Below are positions 4,230-27,393 of a stretch of 29,709 bases of DNA, piece after piece; the stretch's first letter is position 1, and the number at the start of each line of letters is the position of its first letter. Source of the DNA: a virus; IMG/VR virus record IMGVR_UViG_3300027763_000176, positions 1 to 29,709 of that record, one strand, 5' to 3'. The notes beneath the pieces are model-generated. The model was not told where the DNA came from. It was given only the letters and a program-made list of their open reading frames with translations, and made no database searches. The translations under genes were made by a program, and so were the position numbers.

Positions 4230-5105
4230 ATGAAAACAGTAAATAGTATTAGTGGTGGTCAAACTTCTGCATACATAGCAGCTAATTATCCTGCAGATTA
4301 TAATATTTTTGCTTTGGTTACTACAGACGATATTAAATGTCAATATCCTGATGCAAAAGTTAGACAAATTGTAAGTGATAAAATTGGAAAAGAATTTATA
4401 GGTACTTTAGAAGAAGATATAATAATTAAAACAATTTTAGATTTAGAACAATTTATAGGAACTAAAATAGATTGGGTATCAGGTAAATCATTTGATGAAC
4501 AAGTAAAAAGATATAAATTAAATGGTGAAATTAAAATACATTTACCATCAGTTATGCGAAGAACTTGTACTGTTGAAATGAAAATTGAACCTATATTTGA
4601 ATTTTGGAAAAAAAATATTGGAGAAATTACAGAAACAAGAATAGGATTTAGAGCAAACGAAACTTCAAGAGCAAATGCAATGATAGAAAGAGCAAACGAA
4701 ACAAATGGAATTTTAACATTTAAAAGTATTGTTGGAAAATCAGATAATGGTAGAAACAAATGGAAACATATTCCTTATCAAATACCAAGATTTCCTTTAA
4801 TTGAAGATAATATTTATAAAGATAGCATTGTTGAATTTTGGAAAAACAAACCTGTTGAATTTGCTTATATGAATAATTGTGTAGGTTGTTTTCATAGAAA
4901 TCCTGTTGTTCTTAAACATATGTCAGATAGACATCCTAATAAATATCAATGGTTTGTAGATACTGAAAATCAAGGTATGAAACACTTTACAGGTAATAAT
5001 TGGAAACAAGGTATGACTTATGAAAAAATAAGAAGTTCATTTAAACAAATGGAATTGTTTGATACAGATTTTAATGAATGTGATTCAGGATATTGCGGAT
5101 TATGA
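4230..5105 (+). CDS. PAPS-reductase/PP-loop family enzyme
   Basis: The 291-residue protein starts with the PP-loop SGGQTS (8-13), which binds ATP in adenine-nucleotide alpha hydrolases such as PAPS reductase, ATP sulfurylase and DndC. It has a conserved-looking RRTCTVEMKIEP segment (110-121) and several cysteines that could hold an Fe-S cluster or do sulfur chemistry: Cys37, Cys113, the pair Cys217-x2-Cys220, Cys284 and Cys289. PAPS-reductase-like genes are common in phages, and their role is rarely known. Candidates are sulfur modification of DNA or RNA, or activating another substrate. No DndD/E or IscS partner is visible here. It overlaps the next tiny gene by ATGA. Confidence 0.85.
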   Translation: MKTVNSISGGQTSAYIAANYPADYNIFALVTTDDIKCQYPDAKVRQIVSDKIGKEFIGTLEEDIIIKTILDLEQFIGTKIDWVSGKSFDEQVKRYKLNGEIKIHLPSVMRRTCTVEMKIEPIFEFWKKNIGEITETRIGFRANETSRANAMIERANETNGILTFKSIVGKSDNGRNKWKHIPYQIPRFPLIEDNIYKDSIVEFWKNKPVEFAYMNNCVGCFHRNPVVLKHMSDRHPNKYQWFVDTENQGMKHFTGNNWKQGMTYEKIRSSFKQMELFDTDFNECDSGYCGL

Positions 5106-13011: not shown

Positions 13012-14178
13012 ATGGAATTTATACTTACTACTGCAATTAAAAAGTTATTGCGTTTAAAGCAGCGTATTAAAGTTATTAGAGGTGGAACATCAGCAGGTAA
13101 AACTTTTGGAATTCTACCTTTACTAATTGACAAAGCAATAAAAGAGCCAATGCTTGAAATAAGTGTAGTATCTGAATCAATACCACATTTACGCAGGGGT
13201 GCATTAAAAGACTTTTTAAAAATTATAATGGCACTTGGCAGGTACACTGATGCAAACTTTAATAAGTCTACTTTAAAATATACATTTGCAAATGGTAGTT
13301 ATATAGAATTCTTTAGTGTAGACCAACCTGATAAATTACGTGGTGCAAGAAGAAATATATTATACGTAAACGAATGTAATAATATAGACTTTGATTCTTA
13401 TTACCAAATGGCAATTAGAACAAGTGGCGATATATGGTTAGACTATAACCCTGCATCTTCTTTTTGGGTAGATAAAGAAATACTAACTCAAGATAATGTA
13501 GACTTTATAACTTTAACATATTTAGACAACGAAGCATTATCGGATACTATAATAAAAGAAATAGAATCAGCAAAGGTAAAAGCATTAACATCTTCTTATT
13601 GGGCTAATTGGTGGCAAGTATATGGACTTGGGCAAACAGGTAGTTTAGAAGGCGTATGTATTACAGATTGGAACGAAATAGATTTACCAACAGATGCAAG
13701 GATACTTTGTTATGGAATGGACTTTGGGTATAGTAATGATCCAACTTCATTAGTAGCTATGTATAAATATAACGATGCTTTTATATTTGATGAAATAATC
13801 TACAAGAAAGGTTTATTAAACAACGATATAAGCAACCTATTAAAAGCAAACAATGTTAATGATATAATTTACGCTGATAGTGCAGAGCCAAAATCAATAG
13901 CTGAATTAAATACATACGGACACAATATATTACCTGTATCAAAAGGTAAAGATTCAATTATATATGGTATTAATTTAATGAATCAAAATAAAATATATGT
14001 TACATCAAGAAGCAAGAACTTAATTAATGAATTAAGAAACTACATTTGGCTAACTGATAAAACAGGTGTTAAGATGAACAAACCTATTGATGCTTACAAT
14101 CACGCTATAGATGCTATGCGTTACGCTATAATGAGCCAATTAGAGAATCCAAATAAAGGGAACTATTTTATTTATTAA
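13012..14178 (+). CDS. terL: Terminase large subunit
   Basis: The 388-residue packaging motor has both expected domains. The ATPase part shows Walker A RGGTSAGKT (23-31) and Walker B ILYVNE (116-121, catalytic Glu121). The nuclease part shows Asp237 in GMDFGYSNDPT, Asp289 in YADSAEP and Asp367 in NHAIDAMRYA, the metal-binding acids of the RNase H-like fold. It cuts concatemeric DNA and drives it into the prohead. A start at 13012 gives the full ATPase domain with only 19 residues before the P-loop region, typical of this group. A strong inverted repeat follows its stop directly. Confidence 0.96.
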   Translation: MEFILTTAIKKLLRLKQRIKVIRGGTSAGKTFGILPLLIDKAIKEPMLEISVVSESIPHLRRGALKDFLKIIMALGRYTDANFNKSTLKYTFANGSYIEFFSVDQPDKLRGARRNILYVNECNNIDFDSYYQMAIRTSGDIWLDYNPASSFWVDKEILTQDNVDFITLTYLDNEALSDTIIKEIESAKVKALTSSYWANWWQVYGLGQTGSLEGVCITDWNEIDLPTDARILCYGMDFGYSNDPTSLVAMYKYNDAFIFDEIIYKKGLLNNDISNLLKANNVNDIIYADSAEPKSIAELNTYGHNILPVSKGKDSIIYGINLMNQNKIYVTSRSKNLINELRNYIWLTDKTGVKMNKPIDAYNHAIDAMRYAIMSQLENPNKGNYFIY

Positions 14179-14697: not shown

Positions 14698-14719
14698 GTT
14701 AGGTTAAATTTGGTTAAAG

Positions 14720-14747
14720 AGGTGTACAGAAATGTACGCCTTTTTTT
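14720..14747 (+). terminator. Rho-independent terminator before the tail operon
   Basis: AGGTGTAC (14720-14727) pairs with GTACGCCT (14734-14741) over eight pairs including one G-T, followed by seven T. Confidence 0.9.
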
Positions 14748-14794: not shown

Positions 14795-15478
14795 ATGAAA
14801 TTAGAGATTAGCATACCAACAGAATTAAAAGAAATTAAGTTAGCGCAATATCAGGCTTTTTTAAAGATAGCCAAAGATAATGATGATAATGAATTTCTGA
14901 ATCAGAAAATGGTTCAAATATTCTGCAATATAGATTTAAAAGATGTGGCAGAAATTAGATTTAAGGATGTATTAGAAATAACTGCATCACTATCTAAAAT
15001 GTTTAACGTAACATCACATAGGTTTATAAACAGATTTAAACTTGGTGGTGTTGAGTTTGGGTTTATTCCTGAATTAGAAGAAATGACCTTTGGAGAATAT
15101 ACCGATTTAGATTCATACATAGGCGATTGGGATAATATGCATAAAGCTATGGCTGTATTATATAGACCGATTACAAAGAAAGGTTTAAATGACACATATG
15201 AAATAGAAAAATACAATGGTAGTATAACCTATAGTGATGTAATGAAACACGCACCTTTAGATGTTGTATTTGGTGCTAATGTTTTTTTTTACTCTTTAGG
15301 CAACGACTTATTGAAAAGTACGATGACCTATTTGGAGAACAACAAGGAGATGCAGACTATTCTGCAACAGCACAATTCGGTAAACGATGGGGTTGGTATT
15401 CATCAATCTATGCTATTGCTCAAGGAGACCTTACAAGATTTGATAGAGTTACCGAACTACCGATTAACCAATGTTTAA
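14795..15478 (+). CDS. Tail assembly chaperone, short (G-like) form
   Basis: The 227-residue frame-0 product starts at ATG 14795 (MKLEISIPTELKEI). The longer frame from ATG 14732 is rejected because it would translate through the terminator hairpin. The gene lies at the head of the tail operon, and a second, ATG-less frame overlaps its 3' end, which is the layout of lambda G/GT. In lambda these proteins help the tape measure and tail tube assemble and are absent from virions. The product is acidic and helical in its first two thirds. The assignment rests on position and the frameshift more than on sequence motifs. Confidence 0.75.
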   Translation: MKLEISIPTELKEIKLAQYQAFLKIAKDNDDNEFLNQKMVQIFCNIDLKDVAEIRFKDVLEITASLSKMFNVTSHRFINRFKLGGVEFGFIPELEEMTFGEYTDLDSYIGDWDNMHKAMAVLYRPITKKGLNDTYEIEKYNGSITYSDVMKHAPLDVVFGANVFFYSLGNDLLKSTMTYLENNKEMQTILQQHNSVNDGVGIHQSMLLLKETLQDLIELPNYRLTNV

Positions 15479-15540
15479 CATACTTAACATTTGAAAAACA
15501 AAAGAACAAAATAGAAGCTGATTTAATTAAAAAAAGATAA
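14795..15540 (+). CDS. Tail assembly chaperone, -1 frameshifted long (GT-like) form
   Basis: The -1 frame opens after a stop at 15277-15279 and stays open to TAA 15538-15540. It has no ATG in 83 codons yet encodes a convincing sequence (FGKRWGWYSSIYAIAQGD, then LPINQCLTYLTFEK). Its stop overlaps the next start as TAATG, as expected for a genuine gene end. A run of nine T at 15282-15290 offers the slippery heptamer T TTT TTT in the right frame. Slipping there joins 14795-15289 to 15289-15540 and gives 248 residues. A slip further downstream cannot be excluded, because frame 0 still looks protein-like just after the T run. Confidence 0.75.
15282..15290 (+). other. Programmed -1 frameshift slippery site (T9)
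   Basis: Frame 0 reads GTT TTT TTT TAC. The heptamer T TTT TTT lets both tRNAs re-pair after a one-base backward slip, moving ribosomes into the open -1 frame. The -1 frame has a stop just upstream (15277-15279), so this run is the first slip site at which entry is possible. Confidence 0.7.
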
Positions 15541-15995
15541 TGAGTACATTTTACGAAATAACACAAGTGATTAAAAACAAACTGCAAGAGGATTTGTTTG
15601 TTAATACAGTAACTACAGGTGATATATTTAAAGTTGATTTAAACAAGCAAACTATATTTCCATTAAGTCATATTATTATTAATTCAGTTACTTATGCAGG
15701 ACCTGTATTGAATTATAATATATCTATTCTATGTATGGATATTGTAGATGAAAGCAAGTCTAAAACAACAGATATATTCTTGGGTAATGATAACGAGCAG
15801 GATGTATTAAATACACAATTAGCAGTTGCAAATAGATTTTTAGAAGTATTAAGTAGAGGTGCTTTAGCTGAAGATTATGAATTAGTAAATGGTTCTGCAA
15901 ATATTGAATTCTTTACAGAACGTTTTGAAAATAAAATAGCAGGTGTTACAGTTACATTTGATATGGCTATTCAAAATACAATGACAAAATGCTAA
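15540..15995 (+). CDS. Tail completion/terminator-like structural protein
   Basis: The 151-residue protein starts in TAATG with the end of the frameshifted chaperone. It contains a motif I recall from Bacteroidota phage tail proteins (DIFLGNDNEQDVLNTQLAVA, about residues 78-97), with a beta-rich N-terminal half. It sits next to an HK97 gp10-like gene, where tail terminator proteins usually lie, so a role in finishing the tail tube or joining it to the head is likely. The exact role is inferred from order. Confidence 0.65.
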   Translation: MSTFYEITQVIKNKLQEDLFVNTVTTGDIFKVDLNKQTIFPLSHIIINSVTYAGPVLNYNISILCMDIVDESKSKTTDIFLGNDNEQDVLNTQLAVANRFLEVLSRGALAEDYELVNGSANIEFFTERFENKIAGVTVTFDMAIQNTMTKC

Positions 15996-19799: not shown

Positions 19800-19942
19800 T
19801 AAAAAACATTTTAGAATTATTAGCACTTCAAGAACATTACGGACAAAGTGAGGCGATAGAAATAGCAAAAGGAAAATATAAATTAGTAACTTCTTGGAAA
19901 CAAGGTTTTGAACAAGTAAAAAGACTATGGAAAATAAGATAA
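19796..19942 (+). CDS. Small basic helical protein before the tape measure
   Basis: This 48-residue frame starts in ATGA with the preceding stop and overlaps the tape-measure start by 16 bases. The product is helical and basic at the end (VKRLWKIR). Its length and place suggest a small tail assembly factor, but no motif confirms this. Confidence 0.6.
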   Translation: MIKNILELLALQEHYGQSEAIEIAKGKYKLVTSWKQGFEQVKRLWKIR

Positions 19943-21762
19943 TAAATCTTCAAGTTAATGACAATATTAACAATACTGAAAATTCAGTTAAATCATTAAA
20001 GGCTCAATTACGTGAAGCACAAAATGAGGTTAATGCTTTATCTGAAAAGTTTGGTGCAACATCACGTGAAGCGGTACAAGCTGCAAAACAAGCTGCAATA
20101 TTAAAAGATAGAATAGGTGATGCAAAAGCTTTAACTGATGCTTTCAATCCTGATGCTAAATTTCGTGCTTTAACAAGTTCTTTATCAGGTGTTACAGGTG
20201 GATTTGCTGCTGTTCAAGGTGGTATGGCTTTATTTGGAAAAGAATCTGATGATGTTCAAAAGACTTTATTAAAGGTTCAAGCTGCTATGGCACTTTCACA
20301 AGGTATACAATCTGTTGGTGAAAGCGTTGATTCATTTAAGCAATTAGGTGCTGTTATTAAAAGTACCGCAGTAGGTCAAGGAGTTTTAACGGCTGCTACT
20401 GCAGCTTATAATTTTGTTAATACTGCAGCTACTACAGGTTTAAAGTTATTTAGAGCAGCTTTAATAAGTACAGGAATAGGTGCATTAGTTGTTGGTGTTG
20501 GTTTATTAATTTCAAACTTTGACAAAGTAAAAACTGTTATATTAAATCTAATTCCGGGACTTGCAAATGTAGGTAAATTTATTGGTGGAATTGTTGATTC
20601 AATAACTGATTTTGTAGGTGCAACTTCGGATGCTTCACGTGCTTTAGATAAACTTAAAAAGGATGCAGATAAAACATTATCTGTAAATAAAAAGTTTATG
20701 CAGGAACACGGCGACCAAGTTGATGAATATACAAAGAAAAAAATAGATGCTAAAAACGCTTATGCTACTGCAGTAAAAGAAGATGGTGCAGACCAAGTTG
20801 CACTTGCTAAAAAATTAAATAGAGAATTAAGTGATATTGAATTTTCACGTGGAGATGAAGCAAGAAAAAAACAAAAAGAAGCAAATGAAAAAGCATCTGC
20901 AGATAGAAAATCAGAAAATGCAAGAATCAAAAAAGAAGCACAAGCAGAAGCAAAAAGATTAAAAGAAGAAGAGGCTAAAAATATAATTTCAGATGCAGAA
21001 GCCTATAGAAATAAATTAGAAGAAGCTATGAAAGTTGAAGCAGATGCTAAAAAAGCAAATGCCGATGCATTATTAACTGAACAACAATTAGCAATACAAA
21101 ACGAAAATCTTGCATATCAAGCAAAATTAGATAATGCTAAAAGATTTGGTGTTTCAACAGAAGAAATAGAATTACAGCATTTAAATACTATAAATGATAT
21201 AAATAGAACTGCACAAAAGAAAAAGTATGATGATGATAAAGCAGCTGCAGATGCTGAAATGAAAATTGATGAATTAAAAACACAAGCTAAAATTGAACAA
21301 GCACAAAGAGGTGCAGCATTATTAACTAATATTTCTGATTTAATTGGTAAAGATACAGCAGCAGGAAAAGTAGCAGCCGTTGCAGCCACAACAATTAACA
21401 CTTATGCAGCCGCACAAGCAGCGTTTTTAAATGCACAAAAGAATCCAATATCTATACTTGGGCCTGCTTATCCTTATATATCTGCAGGTTTGGCTATTGC
21501 AGGTGGTTTGAAAAACGTACAGGCAATATTATCAGTTCCTACTCCAAGTGGCGGCGGTGGTGGTTCTGCTCCAAGTGGTGGTGGAATGGGTTCTGCTCCT
21601 GTTGCTCCACAATTTAATGTAGTAGGCGCAAGCTCAACAAGTCAATTAGCACAAACAATAGGTAACCAACAAAACACACCTGTACAAGCTTATGTAGTAT
21701 CAAACGATGTCACGACAGCTCAAGCTTTAGACAGATCGATTATACGTGGAGCAAGTTTATAG
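19927..21762 (+). CDS. Tape measure protein
   Basis: The 611-residue protein sets tail length and leads DNA ejection. The first 80 residues are a helical, coiled-coil-prone segment. Residues 80-235 are rich in Ala and Gly with a strongly hydrophobic span (about 177-197, ISTGIGALVVGVGLLI) and a second weaker one (about 205-230). Residues 290-465 are a long charged coiled coil rich in Ala, Lys and Glu. The tail end has alanine-rich helices, a glycine-serine linker (about 539-558) and a polar C terminus. At 611 residues it predicts a tail of roughly 90 nm by the usual 0.15 nm per residue. Direction and composition fit the family well. Confidence 0.9.
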   Translation: MENKIINLQVNDNINNTENSVKSLKAQLREAQNEVNALSEKFGATSREAVQAAKQAAILKDRIGDAKALTDAFNPDAKFRALTSSLSGVTGGFAAVQGGMALFGKESDDVQKTLLKVQAAMALSQGIQSVGESVDSFKQLGAVIKSTAVGQGVLTAATAAYNFVNTAATTGLKLFRAALISTGIGALVVGVGLLISNFDKVKTVILNLIPGLANVGKFIGGIVDSITDFVGATSDASRALDKLKKDADKTLSVNKKFMQEHGDQVDEYTKKKIDAKNAYATAVKEDGADQVALAKKLNRELSDIEFSRGDEARKKQKEANEKASADRKSENARIKKEAQAEAKRLKEEEAKNIISDAEAYRNKLEEAMKVEADAKKANADALLTEQQLAIQNENLAYQAKLDNAKRFGVSTEEIELQHLNTINDINRTAQKKKYDDDKAAADAEMKIDELKTQAKIEQAQRGAALLTNISDLIGKDTAAGKVAAVAATTINTYAAAQAAFLNAQKNPISILGPAYPYISAGLAIAGGLKNVQAILSVPTPSGGGGGSAPSGGGMGSAPVAPQFNVVGASSTSQLAQTIGNQQNTPVQAYVVSNDVTTAQALDRSIIRGASL

Positions 21763-21800: not shown

Positions 21801-22697
21801 ATGAAGATAATAGAACTAATAATAGACGAAAACGAACAACTTTCAGGGGTTGATGCAGTTTCAATAGTAGAATTTCCTGCAATAGAATCTAATTTTATTT
21901 CATTAAACAAGCAATTAGCACTTGCTAAAGTTGATGATGAAAAAAGAATTTTAATGGGAGCAGCTTTAATTCCTAATAAACAAATTTATAGAAGAAATGG
22001 AGAAGATGAATATTACATTTTCTTTTCACCTGAAACTGTACGCAAAGCAAGTGAGTTATTTTTGATGAATTCAAATCAAAATAACGCTACATTAGAACAC
22101 GAAAAAGAATTGAAAGATTTAAGTATTGTAGAAAGTTGGATTGTTGAAGACACTGAAATGGATAAATCTAAAAAGTATGGTTTAGACGCACCTGTGGGTT
22201 CTTGGATGGTTTCAATGAAAGTAAACAACGATGCTATTTGGAATGACTTTGTAAAAACAGGGAAGGTTAAAGGATTTTCGATTGAAGGATATTTCAGCGA
22301 CAAATTAGAAATGTCTTTGCAAAAAGAAAAAGAATTGGAATTGCTAAATAAAATAAAGGACATTATTTTAAATGGTGAAAAAAAAAAGACTAATTTAGAA
22401 TCTTATACAGATTATCCTGAACAAGCTACTGAAAATGCAAAGATAGCTTTAAGATATGCCGAAGAGAATGGTTGGGGTGATTGTGGAACTCCTGTTGGAA
22501 AAGCAAGAGCAAATCAATTAGCAAATAGAGAACCAATAAGCGAAGATACAATTAGTAGAATGGCTTCTTTTGAAAGGCAAAGACAAAATTCAGATAGACC
22601 ATTAGGCGAAGGATGTGGAAGATTAATGTGGTTAGCTTGGGGCGGAGATGCAGGTATTGAGTGGGCGAGTAGAAAACTAAAACAAATAAGAAAATAA
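21801..22697 (+). CDS. XkdF-like prohead protease with C-terminal extra domain
   Basis: The 298-residue protein has two parts. Residues 1-170 resemble the XkdF serine protease (RILMGAALIPNKQIYR, YYIFFSPETV, ESWIVEDTEMDKS, then VKGFSIEGYF). Candidate catalytic residues are His100 and Ser160, with Glu162 nearby. It should trim scaffold and capsid during head maturation. Residues 201-298 form a separate module (YTDYPEQATENAKIALRYAE, then GWGDCGTPVGKARANQL and GCGRLMWLAWGGDAGIEWA) that I recall attached to head proteins of Flavobacterium phages. The scaffold and capsid genes follow directly. The fusion may bring a virion module to the prohead. Confidence 0.85.
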   Translation: MKIIELIIDENEQLSGVDAVSIVEFPAIESNFISLNKQLALAKVDDEKRILMGAALIPNKQIYRRNGEDEYYIFFSPETVRKASELFLMNSNQNNATLEHEKELKDLSIVESWIVEDTEMDKSKKYGLDAPVGSWMVSMKVNNDAIWNDFVKTGKVKGFSIEGYFSDKLEMSLQKEKELELLNKIKDIILNGEKKKTNLESYTDYPEQATENAKIALRYAEENGWGDCGTPVGKARANQLANREPISEDTISRMASFERQRQNSDRPLGEGCGRLMWLAWGGDAGIEWASRKLKQIRK

Positions 22698-24549: not shown

Positions 24550-25092
24550 ATGCCTTGTGATATTTCTTTAGGACGTGCCGAACAATGTAAAAATAGCATT
24601 GGAGGTTTAAGAGCAGCATACTTCATTAATTGGGGTGATGCTACAACGGTAACTTATTCTGCAACTGCAGGACAAGAGGATGTAATTACAGCTTTAGGGG
24701 GAACTCCTGTTGGTTACAAATATGAATTAAAAGGGACTTCAACATTTGAACAAACTGTTACTTCATCAAGAGAAAATGGAACTACATTTGTAGACCAAAA
24801 ATTAACTTTAAGTATTAAGAAATTATCTATTGCAGACCACAAGCAGTTGAAATTATTATCTTATGGTAGACCACAAGTTATTATAGAAGATAACAACGGA
24901 AACTTCTTTATGGCAGGTTTAACTAAAGGTATGGATTTAGTAACTTCTACTATTTCTACAGGTGCTGCTATGGGTGATATGTCAGGATATTCTTTGGAGT
25001 TTCAAGGTATGGAACCTGTACCTGCAAACTTTGTAACAGGACCATTAACTACAAGTATTTTAGCTTCTATTGTTGAAGGAACTGTAGCATAA
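24550..25092 (+). CDS. Major tail (tube) protein
   Basis: The 180-residue protein resembles tail tube proteins of Flavobacterium phages: an N-terminal CDISLGRAEQCK, GGLRAAYFINWG, then GTSTFEQTVTSSRENGTTF, LSIKKLSIADHKQLKLLSYG, and EDNNGNFFMAGLTKGMD. Beta-rich composition and Gly/Thr content fit the tube fold. It is bracketed by terminators at 24500 and 25118, so it is probably transcribed as a strong single-gene unit. It is unusual in lying between the capsid and portal genes and not with the tape measure. Confidence 0.82.
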   Translation: MPCDISLGRAEQCKNSIGGLRAAYFINWGDATTVTYSATAGQEDVITALGGTPVGYKYELKGTSTFEQTVTSSRENGTTFVDQKLTLSIKKLSIADHKQLKLLSYGRPQVIIEDNNGNFFMAGLTKGMDLVTSTISTGAAMGDMSGYSLEFQGMEPVPANFVTGPLTTSILASIVEGTVA

Positions 25093-25193: not shown

Positions 25194-25523
25194 ATGATAA
25201 TTTTAAGGAAACAAACTACAGCACAAAGTTTAACATTTATACCAAGAGTAATGAGTGCAAACACTATTGTTTTAAGAAATGAAACTACAAATGTTGAAAC
25301 TACAATTTCTGCTACATTTAGTTTATCAAGTTATTATTTAACAACGACTACTGTTTTTGATTTAGATGAAAATACATTTTATAATTTAACTATTAAAAAT
25401 GGTGCTAATATAGTTTACAAAGATATTATCTTTTGCACAAATCAAGCTAACGATACATATACAGTAAACCAAAATCAATACATAGCAAACGTTACAACAA
25501 ACGAATTTAAAATTTATGAGTAA
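25194..25523 (+). CDS. Small structural protein, beta-rich
   Basis: The 109-residue protein is almost all beta-type with a high Thr and Asn content (TTAQSLTFIPR, FYNLTIKNG, IVYKDIIFCTNQ, then YTVNQNQYI). I recall similar small proteins next to tail tube or portal genes in Bacteroidota phages. A virion or tail accessory role is likely. Its last 8 bases overlap the portal gene, so the two are co-translated. Confidence 0.65.
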   Translation: MIILRKQTTAQSLTFIPRVMSANTIVLRNETTNVETTISATFSLSSYYLTTTTVFDLDENTFYNLTIKNGANIVYKDIIFCTNQANDTYTVNQNQYIANVTTNEFKIYE

Positions 25524-27393
25524 TATATCAATATTAAATTTAAGTGCTTACACAAGCCCTGTAATACAAGAAAATAAAAAGAATAGTTACATTGAATATG
25601 GAAGTGATAACAATTACTTTCAATATTTAATTGATCGTTATTTATATTCAGCTACCAATGGAGCAATTATTACAGGTGTTGCTAATATGATTTACGGTAA
25701 AGGTTTAGAAGCATTAGATTCTAATCAAAAGCCAAATGAATATGCACAAATGAAGTCTATAATTAAAGATTCAGATTTGCGCAAAGTAGCTTTAGAACGT
25801 AAACTATTAGGAATGGCTGCTATGCAAGTTGTAATGCAAGGTAAAATGGTTAAGCAAGTGCTTCATTTTCCTATGCAAACATTAAGAGCTGAAAAATGCA
25901 ATGATAAAGGACAGATAGAAGCTTGGTATTATCATCCTGATTGGGCTAAAAAGAAACAATCTGAAGACGCAAAACGTATTCCCGCTTTTGGTTTTGGTAA
26001 TGGTAATGAAGTTGAGATATATGTAATACATCCTTATGTGAGTGGATTTGATTATTATAGCCCAATAGATTATTCAGGTTCTTTACCTTATGCTTTGCTT
26101 GAAGAAAATATTGCAGACTATCAAATTAACGATGTTCAGAATGGCTTTAGCGGAACAAAAGTAATCAACTTCAACAATGGTATTCCTTCTGAAGAAATGC
26201 GTGATAAAATGAAGCGTGATGTTATGGGTAAATTAACAGGTGCAAGAGGTGAAAAAGTAATTGTAGCTTTTAACTCTAATGCAGAATCTAAAACAACCGT
26301 TGAAGATTTACCTTTAAACGATGCTCCGGCGCATTATGAATACCTATCTAAAGAATGTTTTGAAAAACTAATTGTTGGCCATAGAATTACAAACCCAATG
26401 TTGTTAGGTATTAGAGAAACAGGTAGTGGCTTAAGTAGCAATGCGGATGAAATAGAAACTTCTACTTTAATGTTTTTAAATTTAGTTATTAAACCATATC
26501 AAAATGAATTAATAACTGCATTAGATGCTATATTAGCTGTTAATGGTATATCTTTAGATTTAAGATTTGTAAGATTACAACCATTAGATAACGAACAAAT
26601 AATAAGTTCTTCAAATCCTATTATTGAAGCGGTAAATAGTTTGTCTCCTTTGGTTGCTAATAAAGTATTAGAATCAATGACTGCAAATGAAATAAGAAGT
26701 TTGGTTGGTTTAGTTCCTGAGCCGGGCGGTTCTGATTTAAATCCAAGTGTTGTATCTAATTTATCTAAAGATTTAACAGATGAAGAAGGAGATAGCATAC
26801 TTAATTCATTATTAGGTGAAGGAATTGATGATGAGTGGGAATTAGTTGACAAAAGAGAATATTCTGAATCTAATATTTCAATTGAAGAATGGGCAAATTC
26901 TAAAATAAAAAACAAAGAAAACCTATTTCAAAAATTAGCGGGAGTTATAAAATCAAACCCAAACGCAAAAAGTTCTTTAGATAAAGACAATTACAAAGTA
27001 CGATATGAATATATTGAAAAATATTCAAGTGGTAATTCAAGAGACTTTTGCAAAAAAATGATGACAAGAACTGCTAATGGAGTTGTATATAGAAAAGAAG
27101 ATATAGATCAAGCAAGTTTTCAAGGCGTGAATATGGAATTCGGACATAATGGTCAAAATTATTCACTCTTTAAATATAAAGGAGGAGTTAGCTGCGGCCA
27201 TGTATGGGGAGAAAACCTATATAGATTAAAAACTAAAACTGATGGAACGCCATATGTAGATAAAGCTTTAAGCTCAAGTGAAGAAGTAGGATTTATTGAA
27301 GGATACAATCCAAATCCAACCGGATGGAGTGAAGCACAAATAGCACCAATAGATATGCCAAATAACGGACATCACCCAAATTATAAAGGATAA
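25516..27393 (+). CDS. Portal protein with extra C-terminal domain
   Basis: The 625-residue protein has a portal-like body (1 to about 430) with NGAIITGVANMIYGKGL, ALERKLLGMAAMQVVMQG, PYALLEENIADYQINDV and the helical HRITNPMLLGIRETG segment. Portals form the 12-part ring through which DNA enters and to which the neck binds. From about residue 491 a second domain begins (NSRDFCKKMM, VVYRKEDIDQASF, LFKYKGGVSCGHVWGENLYR) that I recall fused to portals of Bacteroidota phages. Its role is unclear. The gene lies at the end of the head region, far from terL, which is unusual. The connector gene follows after three bases. Confidence 0.87.
   Translation: MSNISILNLSAYTSPVIQENKKNSYIEYGSDNNYFQYLIDRYLYSATNGAIITGVANMIYGKGLEALDSNQKPNEYAQMKSIIKDSDLRKVALERKLLGMAAMQVVMQGKMVKQVLHFPMQTLRAEKCNDKGQIEAWYYHPDWAKKKQSEDAKRIPAFGFGNGNEVEIYVIHPYVSGFDYYSPIDYSGSLPYALLEENIADYQINDVQNGFSGTKVINFNNGIPSEEMRDKMKRDVMGKLTGARGEKVIVAFNSNAESKTTVEDLPLNDAPAHYEYLSKECFEKLIVGHRITNPMLLGIRETGSGLSSNADEIETSTLMFLNLVIKPYQNELITALDAILAVNGISLDLRFVRLQPLDNEQIISSSNPIIEAVNSLSPLVANKVLESMTANEIRSLVGLVPEPGGSDLNPSVVSNLSKDLTDEEGDSILNSLLGEGIDDEWELVDKREYSESNISIEEWANSKIKNKENLFQKLAGVIKSNPNAKSSLDKDNYKVRYEYIEKYSSGNSRDFCKKMMTRTANGVVYRKEDIDQASFQGVNMEFGHNGQNYSLFKYKGGVSCGHVWGENLYRLKTKTDGTPYVDKALSSSEEVGFIEGYNPNPTGWSEAQIAPIDMPNNGHHPNYKG

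Follow-up and report, generated by a model that had tools for sequence, protein, structure and literature searches.

A conserved T9 run followed by a dual-coded stretch points to a slippage-made pair of probable tail-assembly chaperones in Bacteroidota phages

In this article, I will describe a locus in a phage of Bacteroidota-type bacteria at which a slip in decoding a run of nine T's very likely yields, judging by comparative sequence evidence, two proteins with a common start, G (227 aa) and the fusion GT (165 + 83 = 248 aa). The window referred to below is the whole stretch of DNA that was analysed, an IMG/VR record of 29,709 bases. Ordinary decoding from the shared start would give G, and a one-base slip on T9 into the -1 frame would give GT, composed of the first 165 residues of G and an 83-residue domain called T; residues 1-165 would thus be common to both products and residues 166-227 would form a tail specific to G. 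The programmed -1 frame change giving such a pair, which had been proposed from the letters of the window (the original prediction), is strongly supported by comparison across 403 unique relatives; that both proteins are made, in what ratio and with what role, I infer. Slip-dependent synthesis of G and GT by either RNA polymerase or the ribosome, taken together with a chaperone role, appears likely. A bolder reading, to which I would assign a probability of about 0.48, is that of a Bacteroidota phage chaperone family in which GT would arise when RNA polymerase, and not the ribosome, slips on the conserved T9 run, with a dual-coded stretch lying behind the slip.

G is the frame-0 gene at 14795..15478 (+ strand; 227 aa plus stop), with relatives that are 31-91% identical to it and a match to phrog_32199 (E 2e-17), a family listed there with function unknown. 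Its start at 14795 matches the conserved first Met of the relatives, and 14732, the upstream start given in the list of open reading frames, is not the start; that position falls within a hairpin with a T tail resembling an intrinsic terminator (14716..14745, + strand) directly 5' of G, 2 such sites being present in the region against 0.2 expected. The slippage run occupies 15282..15290 (+ strand) and is read in frame 0 as GTT TTT TTT TAC, so that the in-frame heptamer T_TTT_TTT announced by the original prediction can be read directly at 15283-15289. The two TTT codons are invariant in all 46 non-redundant sequences, where other conserved Phe columns contain 13-33% TTC. The same prediction had left the exact slip point open; comparison places it at the T run, which no relative covering that site lacks.

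The -1 frame is closed by a TAA at 15277-15279, open from 15280 to 15537 and closed again by a stop at 15538-15540, which forms a TAATG with the ATG of the next gene in the tail module (15540..15995, + strand, 151 aa), an equivalent of which, encoding about 140-160 aa, also follows T in host contigs and in the Nonlabens phage P12024L. T itself (15289..15537, + strand) comprises 83 codons, among which there is no ATG, as had been noted earlier, and no GTG or TTG either; an ordinary list of open reading frames therefore omits it, and the concern that standard gene calling would miss the C-terminal part proved justified in the program's own list. The further claim that this frame encodes a convincing protein has held up, given that T, with its K/R-W-G-W-Y motif, is kept wherever the DNA of relatives extends that far and is predicted by AlphaFold2 as a confident helical domain (pLDDT 87). 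It was also correctly observed that the -1 frame opens just before the run, at least in this window, but the feature is incidental, since in many relatives that frame opens much further upstream and the total overlap of the G and T frames reaches 337 nt.

The relatives were gathered in seven scans of viral contigs, one genome scan and a search through 397 genomes belonging to a single family, and amount to 403 unique loci in 163 sequence clusters, with one truncated locus set aside. Every one of the 403 retains G, a run of T's and a T that lies in the -1 frame, at identities that fall to about 31% for G and about 25% for T. Because the scans included G-only seeds, which are blind to T, and T-only seeds, which are blind to the run, conservation of the run and of the -1 frame is not a selection effect. 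Alignment of both frames with relatives, which had been suggested as a check, thus finds the -1 frame conserved rather than missing. Three loci that seemed to lack the run were not genuine exceptions, as the locus ends in L072 and L528, and the search stretch had been too short in L208, where T9 is present. Contigs from Flavobacteriaceae genomes also carry G, the T run and T. Of the 397 genomes surveyed, those of the family to which Flagellimonas onchidii belongs, just 3 have the locus. The Nonlabens phages P12024L and P12024S are the only named phages with a match to G.

Behind the slip, the overlap at 15290..15478 (+ strand) is coded in both frames, as seen in positional entropy and in two-frame substitution classes, and the distance from the slip to the frame-0 stop is 186 nt in most members, whereas it averages 26 nt in the annotated frameshifts from SEA-PHAGES that PRFect uses (PMC10885494). 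When entropy was computed per codon position over 61 relatives, frame-0 third positions before the run carried 0.675 bits against 0.19 and 0.13 at the other positions, variability after the G stop shifted to the third positions of the -1 frame (0.673 bits), and inside the overlap both third positions were depressed (0.33 and 0.36 bits); these codon-position patterns mark three zones, G-only, dual-coded and T-only. Substitution classes counted in 55 sequence pairs add direction to this picture. Rates, given per 1000 opportunities, were 83 for changes that are silent in both frames (109 where set against the class of the first 20 codons); for changes that alter G but leave T unaffected they were 7.7 over the 20 codons that follow the slip and about 30 over the remaining 42, and for changes that alter T but leave G unaffected they were 25, then 10 and 16. 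It follows that T is constrained along its whole length, and that constraint on G is strong over some 20 codons and weak beyond them. The double coding exceeds what chance would give: with the T protein fixed and synonymous codons drawn at random, about 2% of draws keep frame 0 open to this point, and with frame 0 fixed 0.3% keep the -1 frame open. The earlier remark that frame 0 stays protein-like for about 20 codons past the run captured the strongly conserved part, but the protein-like extent is 62 codons. AlphaFold2, run on alignments that left out the P12024L row, predicts G well to about residue 188 and with very low confidence after that, with one helix (residues 155-182) spanning the slip point at residue 165, a modelled picture that agrees with constraint on G fading past about 20 post-slip codons. 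The locus is in effect a natural experiment in two-frame coding, with strong selection acting at once on both frames of some 20 codons.

What slips is a closer question. Ribosomal and polymerase slippage would give the same GT protein sequence. Judged from the runs and their flanks, the odds are tipped slightly toward an RNA polymerase that adds one T: T9 transcripts would give full-length G, T10 transcripts would give GT, and T8 transcripts would lead into the third frame, where a stop would truncate G immediately. That stop is a TAG at 15297..15299 (+ strand), closing the +1 frame two codons past the run, and a +1 stop within three codons of the run is found in 120/125 clusters compared with 29% at control positions; as a sign of two-way slippage it was given little weight, being largely forced by the dual coding of Leu-Gly and Phe-Arg.

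The evidence for this lean lies in the length of the run. Among the 403 unique relatives, 377 have nine T's, 24 have ten, one has 12, one has eight and none has seven. The run usually starts at codon position 2, in some clusters at position 1 (TTT TTT TTT followed by GTG, GCG, CTG or ATC) and in others at position 3 (GGT or AGT, then TTT TTT TTG), so all three codon phases occur, with at least 16 phase changes on a FastTree phylogeny built without the slip columns. Clusters in which the codon after the run has lost its T all have TTT as the codon before (6/6; Fisher 4e-8); of those in which the codon before has lost its second T, 5/6 have a following codon that starts with TT, against 11/157 (Fisher 3e-5); and permuting the flanks predicts 10.7 clusters with a run below nine where one is observed, these Fisher and permutation tests counting related clusters as independent. 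A pairwise test on the tree fell short of significance, with too few independent pairs. The lack of T7 runs and the compensation between flanks point to run length, more than the heptamer, as the conserved property. A run of at least about nine A's or T's regardless of codon phase, the feature associated with transcriptional slippage, is present in 402/403 relatives, and in many bacteria nine is both the slippage threshold and the length at which the genomes start to avoid such runs (PMC1088944). No downstream RNA structure (mean folding z of about 0) and no upstream Shine-Dalgarno-like stimulator (GGAG, AGGA or GAGG in 10/46 sequences) was detected around the site. A downstream stem-loop or pseudoknot, or an upstream element of that kind, frequently accompanies ribosomal -1 sites but is not required, and in Citrobacter tssM the absence of stimulators was itself an argument for transcriptional slippage (PMC4256274).

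Strict ribosomal -1 frameshifting, in which two Phe-tRNAs would slip on T_TTT_TTT with the extra T's being incidental, comes somewhat below even odds and was tacitly assumed by the original prediction. Phage chaperone frameshifts in the literature are ribosomal (PMC5009743), as in lambda G/GT, and the in-frame X_XXY_YYZ heptamer T_TTT_TTT exists in the window and in all unique relatives; the sole T8 relative (locus L523, GGT TTT TTT TCT), whether an assembly error or a tolerated exception, retains that heptamer and not T9. However, any T9 run holds such a heptamer, U_UUU_UUU is far less shift-prone in E. coli than A_AAA_AAG (PMC5009743), and ribosomal slippage would have to act here with neither of the stimulators sought and would leave the near absence of runs shorter than nine, kept up by flanks that make good each other's losses whatever the phase, pointing at least equally to RNA polymerase. 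Conversely, a need for hydrophobic residues in the two frames could account for part of the flanking T's. Setting the run-length evidence against the ribosomal precedent and these constraints, I place RNA polymerase a shade above even and the ribosome not far behind.

That G and GT form a tail-assembly chaperone pair, with G predicted to coat the tape measure and GT predicted to bring in the tail-tube protein as well, is likely by analogy, drawing on their architecture and their neighbourhood of tail genes. The terminase large subunit gene, identified by Pfam and PHROG matches, lies at 13012, shortly before G, and a probable tape-measure protein (19927..21762, + strand; PHROG tape-measure families, best E 3.5e-5) is encoded downstream in the same module, with four genes of 151, 179, 370 and 721 aa between it and T. 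A chaperone pair of this type is expected to sit between the gene of the major tail protein and that of the tape measure. Further along are a match to a head maturation protease at 21801, a probable tail-tube gene at 24550-25092, which no family match identifies, and a portal protein at 25516-27393, whose first ~370 residues match portal families and which has a long C-terminal extension. The putative head protease gene (21801-22697) contains an A10 run at 22378-22387, a second slippage-prone coding run in the window, and elsewhere, at 4230-5105, there is a gene resembling phosphoadenosine phosphosulfate reductase (phrog_424, E 3e-18).

A slippage pair with another role, such as a head-tail joining or terminator factor that occurs with two different C-termini, is unlikely, though several observations would suit it: the locus follows shortly after the terminase gene and sits four genes ahead of the tape measure, neither G nor T matches a chaperone family above the cut-off in Pfam, PHROGs or NCBIfam, and comparison of their folds with the PDB gave weak rows only (Z <= 2.8), PDB sequence comparison giving no informative match. 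Yet a -1 fusion pair 5' of the tape measure in the tail block is the classic chaperone arrangement, 11/45 G members weakly match phrog_166 'tail protein' (best E 3e-5), and BFVD gives one weak match (E 0.2) that bears the annotation 'tail assembly chaperone'. The chaperone identity originally proposed is consequently favoured by architecture and neighbourhood and finds no homology to a known chaperone family in those libraries. The top PDB row for T, Crov588, was probably an artefact of composition and was dropped, and phrog_166 does not identify the pair as Mu-like or lambda-like, Mu gp41 and lambda G and T falling in other PHROGs. Flavobacterium phage 6H gp10, whose fold match has an E of 1.5e-5 but a TM of 0.32, was likewise set aside; it has a candidate T-like region in a different frame, but its reading is interrupted at more than one point. 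After gp10, phage 6H has an unannotated stretch (L316:10040-10927, minus strand) with a long out-of-frame open reading frame and a TTTTTTC close by, which may represent a further frameshift pair or reflect an error in sequencing.

Two further explanations would dispense with the slip altogether, and both are highly improbable, given that there is no conserved start for T and no run length that fuses the frames in DNA. Separate translation of T from an internal start, with no fusion, could draw on ATT, a rare bacterial start codon, which occurs at T codon 6 in 63/124 clusters and at codon 7 in 32/124 (codons numbered from 0), and on P12024L gp41, which is annotated from an internal ATG; but a conserved ATG, GTG or TTG is absent (one lies within 25 codons of the slip in 11/124 clusters), ATT is not invariant and encodes a conserved aliphatic residue, the annotated gp41 start removes the first 26 residues of T, and the invariant T run would be left without explanation. 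Phase variation or sequencing error, by which the run length in the DNA would switch between G and an in-frame GT, could appeal to the proneness of 9-10 T runs to replication slippage and misreading (PMC1088944), but in 0/403 unique sequences is the run of a length that would join G to T within a single frame, and although lengths of 8, 9, 10 and 12 and all three phases occur, the flanks always keep T at -1. Separately, BFVD holds single proteins of 226-280 aa (e.g., A0A6J5N0W0 and A0A516L5A8) that match both the G and T models, which suggests natural in-frame G-T fusions; none turned up in the scans seeded with G.

The family is widespread in IMG/VR, and its halves are filed apart as 'unknown function' (phrog_32199 and phrog_38404). 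Recognising the two as one slippage pair corrects how many genomes of Bacteroidota phages are annotated. In the open-access papers searched, I found no report of the G/T family or of a transcriptionally slipped tail chaperone. If RNA polymerase is indeed the agent, a textbook translational switch would have been rebuilt here at the level of transcription.

A true homologue with a name is gp40/gp41 of Nonlabens phage P12024L, which has T9, a -1 extension (LSFRERLRDLYPELY...KWGWY...) and a position after the terminase gene, with a G identity of about 31%, and which differs in its shorter frame-0 tail of 75 nt past the slip. In that genome (L157:7001-7695), gp40 and gp41 were deposited as separate hypothetical proteins, gp41 being 26 residues short at the start of T. 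The same division seems to have carried over into PHROG families 32199 and 38404; phrog_38404 has 55 positions, the length of the truncated gp41.

Among bacteria, transcriptional slippage at runs of at least nine A's or T's is described for IS elements, Citrobacter tssM (A11), Yersinia tssM3 (A9) and Thermus dnaX (A9), and these genes share with the phage locus a homopolymer of at least nine, a lack of added stimulators and alternative C-termini (PMC1088944; PMC4256274). Tail chaperones are not described there, whereas here the T run is kept across a whole phage gene family. HK97 gp13/gp14, annotated '-1 frameshift', similarly supplies a second product fused in the -1 frame upstream of the tape measure, but shows no detected homology and nearly adjoins the tape measure.

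The closest model in design is lambda gpG/gpGT, where, as here, two genes overlap, a -1 shift near the end of the first fuses a second domain to it, and the block lies 5' of the tape measure. The slip site of lambda is G_GGA_AAG in place of T9, and its annotated T overlaps G by 19 nt, unlike the 186-nt dual-coded stretch seen here. There is no detected sequence relation between the two, four genes separate T from the tape measure in the present phage, and its probable tail-tube gene is downstream of the tape measure, unlike that of lambda. The original observation is well supported, and G/GT here would work like lambda G/GT, from which it differs in the T9 run, the long distance from slip to stop and a sequence with no detectable relation to that of lambda.
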